Positions 30,479 to 44,374 of a stretch of DNA of 64,000 nt are shown in pieces. A program made the position numbers and the translations under genes. Source of the stretch: Nafulsella turpanensis ZLM-10 (GTDB lineage: Bacteria > Bacteroidota > Bacteroidia > Cytophagales > Cyclobacteriaceae); contig NZ_ANNU01000024.1 of assembly GCF_000346615.1 (NCBI RefSeq), forward strand, positions 1-64,000. Reading direction: 5' to 3'. The notes below the pieces were generated by a model. That model searched no databases and was not told the DNA's origin. It saw only the letters and a list, made by a program, of their open reading frames with translations. Position 1 is the stretch's first letter. The number at the start of each line of letters is the position of its first letter.

Positions 30479-30961
30479 ATGGACTATTTAGGACTAGACA
30501 GACAAAAAGTAGATAATGTAGCGAAGAGCCTGAACGAATTACTGGCGGCCTACCATCTTCACTACCAGAAATTAAGAAATTTCCACTGGAACCTAAAAAG
30601 CAATCACTTCTTCGTGCTGCACGAGAAGTTTGAAGAATTCTATAACGATGCCAACGAAAAAATAGATGACATCGCAGAACGTATTTTAACGCTGAGAGTG
30701 CAGCCCCTGAGTCAGCTTTCAGACTACCTGAAAGTGTCGCGAATAAAAGAAGTTTCCGGCGATATGGACGATACATCCATGGTAAATGAGGTACTGAAAG
30801 ACTTTACTGCTCTTATTGCCCTTGGGCGCGAAGTGCTGGAGGTTGCAGGCGATGCCAATGACGAAGGAACTATCGACCTGATTGGGGGCTATGTTGGAGA
30901 CCTGGAGAAAAACAGCTGGATGCTGGCTTCCTATCTTGAAAAGCATCTCCCTAAAAAATAA
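30479..30961 (+). CDS. dps: Dps family ferritin-like DNA-protection protein
   Basis: A 160-residue four-helix-bundle protein forming dodecamers that oxidise and store iron and protect DNA from peroxide. The inter-subunit ferroxidase ligands are visible: His in KLRNFHWNLKSNHFF, and Asp/Glu in FEEFYNDANEKIDDIAERI about 27 residues later. The length and the C-terminal helix (LEKNSWMLASYLEKHLPKK) are normal. It lacks a long Lys-rich N-terminal tail, so direct DNA binding is uncertain. It is monocistronic, with a 207-nt upstream region holding two alternative hairpins and its own terminator. Confidence 0.94.
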   Translation: MDYLGLDRQKVDNVAKSLNELLAAYHLHYQKLRNFHWNLKSNHFFVLHEKFEEFYNDANEKIDDIAERILTLRVQPLSQLSDYLKVSRIKEVSGDMDDTSMVNEVLKDFTALIALGREVLEVAGDANDEGTIDLIGGYVGDLEKNSWMLASYLEKHLPKK

Positions 30962-30980
30962 ATGTACTTCAAAGCAATTA

Positions 30981-31016
30981 AAAAGAACAGGCATCTCTTT
31001 CAGGGCCTGTTCTTTT
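30981..31016 (+). terminator. Terminator of dps
   Basis: Perfect 12-bp stem (30981-30992 / 31005-31016), 12-nt loop, ending in TTTT. It insulates the his promoter just downstream. Confidence 0.9.
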
Positions 31017-31046
31017 AAGTTTATTTTTATTGTTCGGCTTCTTCCC

Positions 31047-31054
31047 TATATTTG
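31047..31054 (+). promoter_or_regulatory. -7 promoter box of the his operon
   Basis: TATATTTG is a perfect TAnnTTTG. It ends 6 nt before the ATG of the histidine-rich leader frame, so transcription should begin at or within a few nt of that codon. The only TTG upstream (31030-31032) is closer than the usual -33 spacing. Confidence 0.6.
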
Positions 31055-31060
31055 CACCAC

Positions 31061-31150
31061 ATGAGTATGCAGTTACATATCCACCTCCATCATCACCACG
31101 CAACAGCATGGCAGGCTACTCATGTACACCACCATCACCATTGTGCATAA
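31061..31150 (+). CDS. hisL: Histidine-rich leader peptide of the his operon (candidate attenuator)
   Basis: A 29-codon frame, ATG at 31061 and TAA at 31148-31150, with 12 histidine codons. The first run is at codons 6-13 (LHIHLHHHH) and the second at codons 21-27 (HVHHHHH). A second ATG at 31067 could also start it. It lies between the dps terminator and hisG, directly after a perfect -7 box. Both CAC and CAT codons are used, so it is not a simple repeat. This is the arrangement of His leader peptides in enterobacteria, where ribosome stalling at His codons reports histidyl-tRNA supply. The peptide itself is probably without function. The symbol is given by analogy. Confidence 0.8.
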   Translation: MSMQLHIHLHHHHATAWQATHVHHHHHCA

Positions 31151-31238
31151 GCACACCTCTTCCTCTTCAGGAAAATCCTTTTAGCCTTACTTAATTACTT
31201 TCACGCCTATTCAGGCAGTTTGCCCAAATTCTTTTTTT
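31113..31238 (+). promoter_or_regulatory. Candidate attenuator between hisL and hisG
   Basis: Segments in order: AGGCTA (31113-31118), TAGCCT (31182-31187), AGGC/GGCA (31213-31217) and TGCC (31221-31224), followed by seven T at 31232-31238 running into the hisG ATG. Segment 1 pairs with 2, 3 with 4, or 2 with 3 (GCCT/AGGC). A local GCCT (31205-31208) / AGGC hairpin competes as well. The stems are short (4-6 bp) and the T-run is 7 nt away from the last stem, so mechanism is uncertain. TGTGC/GCACA (31142-31155) also forms a hairpin around the leader stop codon. Confidence 0.4.
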
Positions 31239-32096
31239 ATGGAAAAAATAAGAATCGCCGTTCAAAAAAGTGGACGTTTAAGCGAAGATTCCCTCAGCCT
31301 CCTCCGTGAGTGTGGCATCAAATTCTCCAATGGCATGCGTAAATTAAAGTCCGAAGCAGCCAATTTCCCTATTGAGTTCCTTTTCCTGCGCGACGACGAT
31401 ATACCAGGTTATGTAGAAGATGGCGTGGCTGATATTGGTATTGTAGGTGAAAATGTAGCAGTGGAAAAAGGTCGGGAGGTTACCATTGCCAAGAGGCTGG
31501 GCTTTTCAAAATGCCGGTTATCGCTGGCAGTTGCTAAAAATGCACAGTATAATAGCCTGGAAGATTTAGAAGGTGGCAATATCGCCACTTCTTATCCTGT
31601 TATCCTCGGGCAATATCTCAAGGAGAAAGGGGTAAAGGCAACGATCCATGAAATTAGCGGCTCGGTAGAAATTGCGCCAAGCATTGGTTTGGCCGAGGCC
31701 ATTTGCGACATTGTAAGCTCCGGAAGTACGCTGTTTATGAATGGCCTTAAAGAAGTGGAAACCATTTTCCGATCAGAGGCGGTGCTCATCAAAGGCACAG
31801 CCTTATCTGCCGAAAAGCTGGAAATACTGGATCGCCTGCTGTTTAGGATAGATGCCGTACAGCGGGGCAAAAATAATAAATATATCCTGCTCAATGCGCC
31901 TGAAGATCAGTTGCAGGAAATAATCCGGATACTGCCAGGTATGCGCAGTCCAACGGTTTTGCCGCTTGCAGAAAAGGGCTGGAATTCTGTGCATTCCGTT
32001 ATTCAGGAGGAGGAATTTTGGGAGGTAATTGACCAGTTGAAGGCAGCCGGTGCCGAAGGAATTTTAGTAGTCCCGATTGAAAAAATGATTTTATAG
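31239..32096 (+). CDS. hisG: ATP phosphoribosyltransferase HisG (long form)
   Basis: First enzyme of histidine synthesis, joining ATP and PRPP. The 285-residue length includes the C-terminal regulatory ACT-like HisG_C domain (about 213-285), so no HisZ partner is needed and histidine feedback inhibition is expected. The catalytic part has IAVQKSGRLSEDSL at the start, DGVADIGIVGENV and the PRPP-site segment EAICDIVSSGSTL. It is the first gene of the hisG-D-C-B operon, 88 nt after the histidine-rich leader frame and preceded directly by a T-run. Confidence 0.97.
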   Translation: MEKIRIAVQKSGRLSEDSLSLLRECGIKFSNGMRKLKSEAANFPIEFLFLRDDDIPGYVEDGVADIGIVGENVAVEKGREVTIAKRLGFSKCRLSLAVAKNAQYNSLEDLEGGNIATSYPVILGQYLKEKGVKATIHEISGSVEIAPSIGLAEAICDIVSSGSTLFMNGLKEVETIFRSEAVLIKGTALSAEKLEILDRLLFRIDAVQRGKNNKYILLNAPEDQLQEIIRILPGMRSPTVLPLAEKGWNSVHSVIQEEEFWEVIDQLKAAGAEGILVVPIEKMIL

Positions 32097-32126: not shown

Positions 32127-33419
32127 ATGGAAATAATTGTGAATCCGGAGCGGAGCCGATGGCCGGAATTATTAGAGAGACCAAGGCAGGAACAGAAAAG
32201 GATAAAGAAGATTATAAAGCCCATCCTGAAAAAGGTGAAGCGAAATGGCGATAGCGCCCTGCTTAAATTTGCTCTTGAGTTCGATTTGGTTCATCTGGAA
32301 GAGGTGGTAGTGTCGGACAATGAGTTGCTGTCTGCCGCGGACGAAATCAATGGAGAACTCAAGGAAGCGATTCAGCTGGCAAAGCAAAATATTGAAACCT
32401 TCCATAAGGCCCAGATGGGGGAGCGGTTGGTCGTAGAAACGATGCCTGGTGTTCGCTGCAGCCGCAAAAGTGTCGCCATTGAAAAAGTAGGTCTCTATAT
32501 CCCCGGAGGTACAGCGCCCCTTTTTTCTACCGTTCTGATGCTGGGTATTCCGGCACGGCTGGCAGGTTGTAAAGAAATTGTGCTGTGTACGCCGCCCGAC
32601 CGTAGCGGAAAAATTCATCCGGCCATTTTGTATACTGCTCATTTGCTGGGTATCCGTAAAGTTTTTAAAACCGGAGGGGCACAGGCCATTGGAGCCATGA
32701 TGTATGGGACGGAAAGTGTTCCGAAAGTAGATAAGATTTTCGGCCCCGGAAATCAGTATGTAACAGCAGCCAAGTTAAAAGCGGCAAAGGAAGGAATTGC
32801 CATCGATATGCCTGCCGGTCCGTCTGAAGTAGCGGTATATGCCGATGTCTCTGCTCATCCTGCCTTTGTGGCGGCCGACCTGTTGTCGCAGGCAGAGCAC
32901 GGGGCCGATAGCCAAGTGGTGCTGGTTGCCACCAGCAAAGAAATAGCCGAAGCTATACAGAAAGAGGTGGAAACGCAACTTCAGGACCTGCCCAGGAAGG
33001 AAATGGCACAGCAGGCACTGGAAAACAGCCGTTTCCTGGTGGTATCCCGGGAGGCAGATGCTATTGACCTGCTGAATGCCTATGCCGCTGAGCACCTGAT
33101 TTTAAGCGTGCATAATTACGGGGAAGTGGCGGAGAAAATTATAAATGCCGGCTCGGTCTTCCTCGGGAATTACTCACCCGAATCGGCTGGCGATTATGCT
33201 TCGGGTACCAACCATACGCTCCCGACCAATGGCTTTGCCCGGGCCTATAGCGGGGTATCGGTCGATAGTTTTGTGAAGAAGATTACCTTTCAGGAAATTA
33301 GTCCAGAAGGGCTTAAGAATATTGGCCCTGCAATTGAAACCATGGCCGAAGCAGAGCACCTGCAGGCCCATGCCAATGCCGTAAGCCTCCGACTACAGCA
33401 AATAAAAAATAATGGCTGA
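32127..33419 (+). CDS. hisD: Histidinol dehydrogenase HisD
   Basis: Zinc enzyme that performs the last two oxidations from histidinol to histidine with NAD; 430 residues. Conserved stretches are GLYIPGGTAPLFSTVLML, IFGPGNQYVTAAKLKA, DMPAGPSEVAVYAD, LLSQAEHGADSQ with Zn-binding and catalytic residues, and SGTNHTLPTNGFARAYSGVS. Spacing from hisG is 30 nt, and its end overlaps hisC by 8 nt. Confidence 0.97.
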   Translation: MEIIVNPERSRWPELLERPRQEQKRIKKIIKPILKKVKRNGDSALLKFALEFDLVHLEEVVVSDNELLSAADEINGELKEAIQLAKQNIETFHKAQMGERLVVETMPGVRCSRKSVAIEKVGLYIPGGTAPLFSTVLMLGIPARLAGCKEIVLCTPPDRSGKIHPAILYTAHLLGIRKVFKTGGAQAIGAMMYGTESVPKVDKIFGPGNQYVTAAKLKAAKEGIAIDMPAGPSEVAVYADVSAHPAFVAADLLSQAEHGADSQVVLVATSKEIAEAIQKEVETQLQDLPRKEMAQQALENSRFLVVSREADAIDLLNAYAAEHLILSVHNYGEVAEKIINAGSVFLGNYSPESAGDYASGTNHTLPTNGFARAYSGVSVDSFVKKITFQEISPEGLKNIGPAIETMAEAEHLQAHANAVSLRLQQIKNNG

Positions 33420-34461
33420 ACTACTTCAACTACTGCGTCCGCACCTCCAAAAGCTGGTGCCTTATTCCTCTGCCCGCGATGAGTTTTCGGGCGAGGCGGC
33501 TGTTTTTCTTGATGCCAACGAAAACCCGCTTGGTTCAGCCACCCTGGAGAACTACAATCGTTATCCTGATCCTTACCAGTACCGCGTAAAGCGAATGCTG
33601 GCAAAAATAAAATGTGTGGAACAGGAGCAAACTTTTCTGGGCAATGGCAGCGACGAAGCCATCGACCTGCTGATTCGCGCCTTCTGCGAACCAGGGCAGG
33701 ACCACATCATTATTCTGCCGCCCACCTACGGCATGTACAAGGTAAGTGCCGATATTAATAATGTGGAGGTTCGGGAACTGCTCCTCTCCTCCGATTTTCA
33801 GCCAAGGGTGGAGGCTATTCTGGAAGCGGCTAATGCACAAAGTAAAATCCTGTTCATTTGCTCACCCAATAACCCAACGGCCAACCTGCAGAATCCGGAG
33901 GCTGTTCGGCTCCTGCTTCAAAGCTTCCCGGGCCTGGTGGTGGTCGATGAAGCATATATCGATTTTGCCCGGGTAAATTCATGGACCGAAAAGCTGGAGG
34001 AGTTTCCTAACCTGGTAGTGCTGCAGACCTTTAGTAAGGCCTGGGGCCTCGCCGCCCTCCGCCTGGGTATTGCCATGGCTTCGCCGGAAATAATTGCCAT
34101 TCTTAATAAGATTAAGCCTCCCTATAATATTAACGAGCTTACGCAGGAACGGGCATTAAATGCCATGCGCAATTTCGATAAAATGGAAATGCATGTTAAA
34201 CTCATTTTGCATGAGCGCGAAAGACTGGTGAAGGCTTTGGAGGATCTGGCACTGGTAGAAAAGGTGTACCCGAGTGATGCCAATTTTGTATTGCTGAAGG
34301 TAAAGGGGGCCCGGCAGGTGTATGAATACCTGGTAAAGCAGGGAATAATTGTTCGCGATCGTTCAAAAGTTGCCCTCTGCGAAGACTGCCTCAGGATAAC
34401 AGTAGGAACACCCGAAGAAAACGATTTATTACTGGAGCAGCTCGCTCTCTATTCTGCATAA
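33412..34461 (+). CDS. hisC: Histidinol-phosphate aminotransferase HisC
   Basis: Class I/II PLP aminotransferase converting imidazole-acetol phosphate to histidinol phosphate; 349 residues. Visible are LDANENPLGS at the N-terminus, FICSPNNPTAN, VVDEAYIDFA with the PLP-pyridine Asp, and the Schiff-base Lys209 in TFSKAWGLAALRLG. It overlaps hisD by 8 nt, so translation is coupled. A 66-81-nt gap with two hairpins separates it from hisB. Confidence 0.96.
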   Translation: MAELLQLLRPHLQKLVPYSSARDEFSGEAAVFLDANENPLGSATLENYNRYPDPYQYRVKRMLAKIKCVEQEQTFLGNGSDEAIDLLIRAFCEPGQDHIIILPPTYGMYKVSADINNVEVRELLLSSDFQPRVEAILEAANAQSKILFICSPNNPTANLQNPEAVRLLLQSFPGLVVVDEAYIDFARVNSWTEKLEEFPNLVVLQTFSKAWGLAALRLGIAMASPEIIAILNKIKPPYNINELTQERALNAMRNFDKMEMHVKLILHERERLVKALEDLALVEKVYPSDANFVLLKVKGARQVYEYLVKQGIIVRDRSKVALCEDCLRITVGTPEENDLLLEQLALYSA

Positions 34462-34542: not shown

Positions 34543-35649
34543 ATGGAGGAAAAGAAAAAAGCCTTATTTATAGACAGGGACGGAACCATAATTGTAGAGC
34601 CGAAAACTGATTTTCAGGTCGATTCGCTCGAAAAGCTCGCCTTTATCCCAAAAGCCATTTCTAACCTCAGACGTATTGCTGAACAGTCGGATTATGAGCT
34701 GGTAATGGTGACGAACCAGGATGGTTTAGGTACCGGGAGTTTCCCGGAAGAAACATTTTGGCCCGCTCATCAGAAAATGCTGGATATTCTGGAGGCTGAA
34801 GGGGTGGTGTTCGACAATATCCTTATTGATCGGAGCTTTGAGCACGAAGGGCTGGATACCCGCAAGCCCGGCACTGGTATGTTTCCTTCTTACCTGGCAG
34901 GCGATTACGACCTAACCAACAGTTATGTAATCGGCGACCGGCTTTCAGATGTGCAGCTGGCTAAAAACCTGGGCTGTAAAGCTATTTTTATCGGCGAATC
35001 AGGCGCTCCGGATGCGGAGCTTAGCTCGACCAACTGGGATGAAATAGCTGATTTCGTGCTACTGCCTTTCCGCTCGGCCGAAGTCCGCCGCACTACAAAA
35101 GAAACAGATATCCAGCTGCAGCTGCTGCTCGATAGTAAAGGTACTGCCGATATACAAACGGGTCTGCACTTTTTCGACCATATGCTCGACCAGCTGGCCC
35201 GGCACAGTGGAGTAAGCATACAGCTGCAGGTAAAAGGAGATCTCCAGGTAGATGAGCACCATACCATTGAAGATACTGCCTTGGCTTTAGGAGAGGCTTT
35301 TGCGAAGGCTATCGGCGATAAGCGTGGCATGGAGCGTTATGGCTTTCACCTGGTTATGGACGATGCCCTGGCCCAGGTGGCAATTGATTTTGGCGGTCGC
35401 CCCTGGATCGTGTGGGAGGCAGAGTTTAAGCGGGAGAAAATAGGGGATATGCCTACCGAAATGTTCTACCACTTCTTTAAATCCTTTAGCGATGCTGCCC
35501 GCTGCAATCTCCACATGAAGGTTTCGGGCGAAAATGAGCATCATAAAATCGAAGCCCTTTTCAAGGGACTGGCTCGCTCTATTCGGATGGCTATTCGGCA
35601 GGACCCGAACCAGCTCCAGAATTTGCCGAGTACCAAAGGCGTATTGTGA
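34543..35649 (+). CDS. hisB: Bifunctional histidinol-phosphatase / imidazoleglycerol-phosphate dehydratase HisB
   Basis: Two enzymes in one 368-residue chain. The frame opens at a TTG (34528), but the ATG at 34543 ([15 protein letters not shown]) is preferred. Residues about 1-165 are a HAD phosphatase ([13 protein letters not shown] with the DxD nucleophile; [20 protein letters not shown]). Residues about 170-368 are the dehydratase, with metal-binding motifs [28 protein letters not shown] and [12 protein letters not shown]. It is the last his gene here: hisH, hisA, hisF and hisIE do not follow. Confidence 0.97.
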
Positions 35650-43867: not shown

Positions 43868-44374
43868 TTAAAGCCTGGTGGGTTCCGCTTTAAACTCCCC
43901 CTTCAAGTACCTTTTTCCTAGTTCTACATAACGGGCGGCATTTTCTTTAATCTTTTCGGCCTGTTCAGGACTTAGCTGTTTAACTACCTTGCCCGGAGTG
44001 CCCATTACCAGCGAATAATCAGGTATTTCAGTACCTTCCGTCAGCAGGCTATGAGCACCAATAATACAGCCTCTGCCTACTTTTACCCGGTTGAGCAGGG
44101 TAGCCCGCATTCCTATTAAGCTACTATCGTCAACGGTAGCGCCATGGACAATGGCCCCGTGGCCTACGACCACATCTTCGCCTATATGAACGGGAACTCC
44201 CGGGTCTACATGAACAATAGCCCCATCCTGAATGTTAGAGCGGGCACCTACCACTATTTTATCTCCATCGCCGCGCAAAACCGCCCCAAACCATACGGAG
44301 CTTTCGTCGCCCAACTCCACCTGTCCTATAAGGGTGGCGTTAGGTGCCACAAATACCTCTTTTCCTTTTTTCAT
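43868..44374 (-). CDS. Gamma-class carbonic anhydrase family protein
   Basis: A 168-residue left-handed beta-helix protein. A longer frame exists, but the ATG at 44374 overlaps the kdsB stop by 4 nt (ATGA) and gives the usual family length. Hexapeptide repeats run from about 10 to 140. The zinc histidines are the one in AIVHVDPG and the two in VVGHGAIVHG; RGDGDKI and NIQDG are also conserved. The family also includes PaaY/YrdA-like proteins, so carbonic anhydrase activity is probable but not certain. It is third in an NfeD-kdsB-gamma-CA operon. Confidence 0.9.
   Translation of the reverse strand: MKKGKEVFVAPNATLIGQVELGDESSVWFGAVLRGDGDKIVVGARSNIQDGAIVHVDPGVPVHIGEDVVVGHGAIVHGATVDDSSLIGMRATLLNRVKVGRGCIIGAHSLLTEGTEIPDYSLVMGTPGKVVKQLSPEQAEKIKENAARYVELGKRYLKGEFKAEPTRL

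Follow-up and report, generated by a model that had tools for sequence, protein, structure and literature searches.

Organization of the hisGDCB locus

The window, meaning the whole stretch of 64,000 nucleotides analysed here, has a dps gene followed in order by a terminator hairpin, a -7 promoter box, a short histidine-rich leader frame and the genes hisG, hisD, hisC and hisB. The features identified are as follows.

30981..31016, plus strand: intrinsic terminator hairpin of dps, which parts the leader from dps transcription (RNA fold)
31047..31054, plus strand: predicted -7 promoter element TATATTTG (Bacteroidota consensus TAHHTTTG), with a start at about 31059 (sequence)
31061..31150, plus strand: His-rich leader peptide ORF, 29 codons, 12 His (sequence; similar frames across the phylum)
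31080..31157, plus strand: candidate site of Rho loading, rich in C and poor in G (78 nt with 31 C and 10 G; composition)
31142..31155, plus strand: hairpin UGUGC-AUAA-GCACA with the leader stop codon in its loop, -5.2 kcal/mol alone (folds)
31160..31173, plus strand: second small hairpin UUCCU-CUUC-AGGAA, weak at -2.8 kcal/mol (folds)
31214..31238, plus strand: weak hairpin GGCA-GUU-UGCC (-2.9 kcal/mol), a 7-nt gap and a T7 run adjoining hisG (sequence, fold)
31239..32096, plus strand: hisG, ATP phosphoribosyltransferase, the gene next to the leader (TIGR00070, 199.1 bits against a cut-off of 75.75)
32127..33419, plus strand: hisD, histidinol dehydrogenase (TIGR00069, 529.6 bits)
33412..34461, plus strand: hisC, histidinol-phosphate transaminase (TIGR01141, 366.9 bits)
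34543..35649, plus strand: hisB, bifunctional phosphatase/dehydratase (NF003937, 533.5 bits)

The genes hisG, hisD, hisC and the bifunctional hisB all pass their NCBIfam cut-offs, and the dps gene matches Dps models with scores below theirs. The dps terminator is strong, with the stretch 30976-31030 folding at -18.1 kcal/mol. On contig 19 of the same genome (L322), hisF and a hisA-like gene sit away from hisGDCB; the ORF ahead of them, which by its likeness we take to be hisH, has no His-rich ORF upstream. At the corresponding locus of a congener (L323), an ORF with NHHYYHH is found about 290 nt upstream of the hisH-like ORF.

The leader frame and its recurrence across the Bacteroidota

The leader frame, MSMQLHIHLHHHHATAWQATHVHHHHHCA, runs from an ATG at 31061 to a TAA at 31150, downstream of the dps terminator and upstream of hisGDCB. 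Its 12 His codons in 29 are arranged in two runs and comprise 6 CAC and 6 CAT. The original prediction, which described a 29-codon frame between the dps terminator and hisG with 12 His codons in two runs and both codons in use, is thus correct in content and position. An alternative longer start exists in frame, namely TTG at 31052, and ATG 31061 is considered the likelier one because this TTG overlaps the predicted -7 box.

Two measures of chance, both counting the frame from TTG 31052, were applied. Among the 1,124 ORFs of 10-60 aa in the six frames of the window, only the leader frame reaches 6 His in 12 codons; no ORF has 5, and five others have 4. In 3,000 dinucleotide shuffles of the leader's own upstream region, none reaches 6 His and nine reach 5.

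Similar frames were sought upstream of hisG in other genomes. The hisG search gave a match in 50 of 59 relatives and in 325 of 392 genomes across the phylum, and in the named genomes the best 80 loci of a longer list were kept. The resulting 237 loci comprise 30 from the relatives, 80 from the named genomes, 27 new ones from the phylum search and 100 hand-picked stretches, taken from the match lists of the relatives and of the phylum and mostly representing different genera, with the far end of the phylum list unsampled. An upstream ORF with at least 4 His in 12 codons is present at 185 of the 237 loci, which share kinship and do not give independent counts, against 150 of 9,480 dinucleotide shuffles (1.6%). 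Loci under this threshold (52/237) cluster by family, and families sampled without a leader include f66 and f37 (0/3 each) and f4, f2 and f74 (0/2 each), along with nine further families sampled once. Fifteen of the 80 named loci fall below it: those of Fibrella, Rudanella, Siphonobacter, Flexithrix and Rhodocytophaga have a His score of 0 to 2, and three Cyclobacterium loci, with a score of 3, lie just under the threshold. One locus counted as positive, L091 (MCLRHMHKQHRQH), looks like chance.

The frame in the window is not a chance frame, since it is unique there and its kind recurs at 185 of 237 loci compared with 1.6% of shuffles; a frame devoid of function, in whose favour the 52 loci lacking a leader by this measure would count, has a negligible probability. 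In the nearest relatives, L002 of the same genus (MSYQLNTYSHHHYLHAPAWHGSHVHHHCA) and L031, Cesiribacter sp. SM1 (MIALLHHHHCLFFTAPHHWQAVHHHHA), the His runs are kept and the flanking residues vary. This is the pattern of conserved runs and variable flanks that had been proposed as a check, and its recurrence before hisG supports the idea of a dedicated His leader. Overall, the distribution of these frames indicates that leader-peptide control by amino acids may be widespread in the Bacteroidota, where ribosomes make little use of Shine-Dalgarno sites, and provides loci at which such control can be tested.

Leader frames of other amino acid operons

Short ORFs rich in the codon of the operon's product are also found before other biosynthetic genes. 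Upstream of trpE, an ORF with WW or WWW is present at 18 of 24 full-length loci of relatives, six paralogous or partial loci having been left out. These include the window's own genome, where a Trp leader with WWW, MKMTNLYSAWWWHTLQPRK, precedes trpE on contig 65 (L267); by eye, it is followed by a terminator with a T-run and has a leader-end segment complementary to the 5' arm of that terminator, which looks classical. The Rfam Trp_leader model matches L267 only under its gathering score. Dense Val/Ile runs (9 or more of 12 codons for I, L or V) lie upstream of ilvD at 6 of 21 loci (L284, L287, L291, L293, L294, and L300), nine others having been left out, and are likely to be branched-chain leaders; the ilvD search gave no match in the window's genome. 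Unlike the hisG count, the trpE and ilvD counts stand without a shuffle control.

That the enriched codon tracks the product of the operon favours codon sensing and disfavours a metal-binding peptide. Clusters of histidine do bind metals, and the frame could on that account be read as coding for a small His-rich protein that has its own function. This reading is highly improbable, as the length of the peptide and its sequence outside the His runs vary widely, its end residues fall in paired RNA segments in several families, and its position before hisG is constant, with Trp runs taking the place of His runs at trpE loci.

Terminators and antiterminators

The 237 loci contain 231 distinct upstream stretches, of which 199 have a frame with at least 3 His in 12 codons and 179 of these have at least 4. 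Between leader and hisG, a hairpin of -10 kcal/mol or lower with a T-run was found at 98 of the 199 loci and at 87 of the 179. The share differs by family, with terminators at 23/23 loci in f25, 11/12 in f23, 7/8 in f35, 6/6 in f48 and 5/5 in f26, as compared to 0/6 in both f22 and f42, and 14/39 in f1, the family of the window. Leader loci with an intrinsic terminator belong mostly to families other than that of the window. The 5' arm of the terminator can pair with the end of the leader, at a median of -11.95 kcal/mol compared with -7.1 kcal/mol in mononucleotide shuffles; this antiterminator pairing is individually significant at 55 of the 98 terminator loci and not significant at the other 43, which include all six in f48. 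The off-step at about half of the leader loci has the look of common intrinsic termination, in many cases accompanied by an antiterminator.

In the window, terminator scans found no intrinsic terminator between leader and hisG; for one of the scans, 0.2 were expected. The hairpin at 31214..31238 was missed by these scans and is not a canonical terminator. It is nevertheless the basis of a classical attenuation model in which GGCA-GUU-UGCC and the T7 run would terminate transcription and GGCAGGCU (31110-31117) would pair with AGUUUGCC as antiterminator, a pairing that is predicted with the ribosome stalled in the first His run. The classical look of the trp leader in the same genome and the strong terminators at 98 of the 199 loci are in keeping with such a model, which is unlikely all the same, given the result of the scans, the weakness of the hairpin and its distance of 7 nt from the T-run. 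Nor does pairing of the leader interior with the downstream RNA reach significance, the p values being 0.10 for the window and between 0.17 and 0.72 for L002, L003 and L031.

Rfam RF00514 (His_leader) has no match in the window at its gathering score, nor up to an E-value of 1 in 30950-31300; RF01692 (Bacteroid-trp) matches neither the window nor the seven trpE loci searched, and no T-box family is among the Rfam matches of the window. For ten related loci, Rfam returned two matches, both under the gathering score. The enterobacterial mechanism as such, to which the leader had first been likened, is hence not borne out in the window, where neither an intrinsic terminator, a significant antiterminator nor a His_leader match was found.

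Promoter box and predicted transcript start

The Bacteroidota -7 element is TAnnTTTG, with transcription starting 5 nt past its last G (PMC6847099, PMC9723704). From the box in the window, transcription is predicted to start 2 nt ahead of the leader ATG, and not downstream of 31150, the outcome that had been named as counting against a leader. In 128 of the 179 leaders, the 90 nt preceding the first His codon contain a box of the form TAnnTT[TC]G; the same box was found in 356 of 3,580 dinucleotide shuffles (9.9%) and, among 101 windows of full length taken from inside hisG, in one. Box-bearing loci number 63 among the 74 terminator-less ones, 17 among the 18 intermediate ones and 56 among the 87 with a terminator; in 52, 16 and 24 of these, respectively, no more than 10 nt separate the predicted start from the leader ATG. 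Flavobacterium johnsoniae has leaders of more than 10 nt on 87% of its predicted transcripts (PMC6847099). The leader ORF would accordingly be nearly leaderless, sitting at the extreme 5' end of its transcript, an arrangement that bears on how Bacteroidota begin translation. A sigma-70 promoter scan of the window found nothing, as expected in this phylum. A conserved stretch similar to CGTATATTTGCATACATG or AGCGTAACTTGC, located just before hisG in relatives from Belliella and Algoriphagus (L042 and L057 among them), looks like a second -7 box.

Stop-codon hairpin and C-rich RNA

Many terminator-less relatives likewise have a hairpin enclosing the leader stop codon. At terminator-less loci, these hairpins fold at -5.9 kcal/mol versus -2.2 kcal/mol in shuffles; at terminator loci the two values are -3.0 and -3.1 kcal/mol. 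A visible hairpin with arms similar to those of 31160..31173 is found in the congener L002. The fold of the whole leader of the window is only slightly stabler than shuffles (z -1.64). A perfect 9-bp pairing of 31059-31067 with 31117-31125 was observed in the window (-16.3 kcal/mol, compared to -8.1 kcal/mol shuffled, 0/300) and is present in L002 also (p 0.013), being absent in L003 and L031; this pairing of the start-codon region with the leader interior might limit re-initiation.

The stretch 31080-31157 lies in and just after the leader and is C-rich and G-poor, partly from its His codons. Equally extreme 78-nt stretches number 16 of 63,923 on the plus strand of the window and 242 on the minus strand. 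The 16 are at two places only, three at the leader and 13 starting at 44241-44254; plus-strand 44241-44331 is the sole other place on this strand of the window that matches the leader in its excess of C over G. Across the loci, C minus G downstream of the leader is 0.090 where there is no terminator (n=74) and 0.012 where there is one (n=87, hairpin excluded; p 3e-8). The best 78-nt C-minus-G value in leader regions is 12 at terminator-less and 6 at terminator loci, the corresponding values inside hisG being 8 and 3, and hisG as such is less G-biased at terminator-less loci (-0.037 vs -0.070). The C-rich signal is owed partly to the His codons and partly to background, and some terminator-less relatives (L042, L200) have little C excess.

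Proposed control of hisGDCB

With a probability of roughly 80%, we consider 31061-31150 to be a leader ORF that acts in cis, sensing charged histidyl-tRNA and controlling hisGDCB. Comparison supports the frame itself, the way it recurs and its position downstream of a promoter box. Ribosome-stalling control is strongly supported by comparison too, on account of the recurrence of the frame relative to shuffles and the presence of a Trp leader with terminator in the same genome; we infer the translation of the leader, the stalling and the direction of control. Translation of the leader would begin right at the 5' end of the hisGDCB mRNA. With histidine plentiful, the ribosome would cross both His runs, open the stop-codon hairpin and depart, after which transcription would end before hisG or early within it. 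When charged tRNA-His is scarce, ribosomes would stall in the His runs and hisGDCB would be transcribed, so that the leader would respond to histidine.

For the off-step in this genome, Rho-dependent termination is our first choice, at somewhat less than even odds. The His runs and the RNA behind them are C-rich and G-poor, and would be covered by stalled ribosomes and exposed by those that have finished. Our best guess places Rho ahead of an imperfect intrinsic terminator and the latter ahead of translational control; Rho is ranked first because neither a terminator nor significant pairing was found, the stop-codon hairpin and the C excess are both there, and predicted access to hisG is unchanged. 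As regards the last of these, it could be that the position of the ribosome alters the burial of the hisG start in RNA structure. Attenuators of this type exist (PMC9413887), and the hisG ATG of the window lies inside a predicted local hairpin, but the predicted accessibility of the hisG start in the window is 0.467 with the ribosome stalled and 0.470 with it released, and the mean difference over the 74 terminator-less loci is -0.001. Masking of hisG was rejected on this equality of the two states, and translational control is doubtful, more so than the classical model.

A more speculative extension of Rho-dependent termination, of rather low probability, would make the His sensor and the Rho loading site one and the same RNA in this clade, namely the His run of a nearly leaderless ORF. 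The CAC and CAT codons, having C and no G, would be either read by a ribosome or left bare for Rho; stalled ribosomes would mask the site, keeping the operon on, and the stop-codon hairpin would time their release. Lineages would then have swapped an intrinsic terminator for a Rho switch while keeping the leader. The comparison of terminator loci with those having a stop-codon hairpin and C-rich RNA makes such a swap of termination modes under one sensor testable.

Comparison with known leader systems

Like enterobacterial hisL (RF00514), the leader is a short ORF with His runs directly before hisG and is expected to respond to charged tRNA-His. It differs from hisL in having no intrinsic terminator found and no supported antiterminator, and in its predicted near-leaderless start and two His runs.

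For the proposed off-step, mgtL is one leader ORF that controls Rho. A tested precedent is CruR, in which a stalled ribosome bars Rho from a stretch with C in excess of G and its release permits termination (PMC9426467), and this was counted in favour of a Rho-type off-step here, for which the same polarity is proposed. CruR senses copper by means of an arrest peptide, in contrast to the codon starvation proposed for the his leader.

His-rich leader ORFs before histidine genes have been described in another phylum, the Firmicutes (PMC2965389, PMC9413887), and terminator and antiterminator hairpins have been proposed for these (PMC9413887). The leaders of Firmicutes and Proteobacteria have no sequence likeness and convergent evolution was considered (PMC2965389). 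According to the same 2010 survey, leader-peptide systems had, to its authors' knowledge, been shown only in Proteobacteria and Actinobacteria, ermC apart, and the Firmicutes were added to these (PMC2965389).

Within the Bacteroidota, the principle of leader-peptide attenuation is not new, since strong clues for it upstream of amino acid operons of Flavobacterium psychrophilum are reported in one sentence (PMC9723704) and the Bacteroid-trp motif (RF01692), listed since 2010 by Weinberg (PMC2864571), is related to Trp attenuation (PMC6414381). These share phylum and principle with the his leader, and the window's genome, with its Trp leader before trpE, resembles Bacteroid-trp in principle. No his operon is mentioned in the F. 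psychrophilum passage, and the main text of that paper has no match for 'histidine' (PMC9723704). The word 'bacteroid' has none in the main text of a comparative study from 2022 on how histidine genes are regulated (PMC9413887). In the limited collection of literature searched, no phylum-wide His leader, near-leaderless start or terminator-less variant was found. An attenuation survey across bacteria by Lopatovskaya and others (2010) may have included Bacteroidetes. The original prediction of a little-described case holds in part only, given the F. psychrophilum clues and Bacteroid-trp (PMC9723704, PMC2864571).

A conserved element in the Cyclobacteriaceae

At Cyclobacteriaceae loci, for example L042, L077 and L101, the leader end CATCATTTCCATCATTCCTC is followed by a stop-codon hairpin and then by ACATATCGCCC, and this whole element is highly conserved in sequence. 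Seven of 37 candidates were left out of the alignment of this element, namely the near-identical L053 and L060, and L050, L058, L069, L055 and L106, which are without the downstream motif. A single conserved RNA structure was rejected, as RNAalifold keeps only three pairs, covariation is weak, and 34 of 500 shuffles reach the covariation score of the stop hairpin. A model of the element, searched with strict filters in the 59 relatives, gave one match in each of 11 genomes, always before hisG, ten of these genomes having helped to build the model; there was no match in the window's genome. An extra weak match (E 0.08) lies in a genome without a hisG match. Several Cyclobacteriaceae leaders also have a CATATCG-like copy near the leader start.
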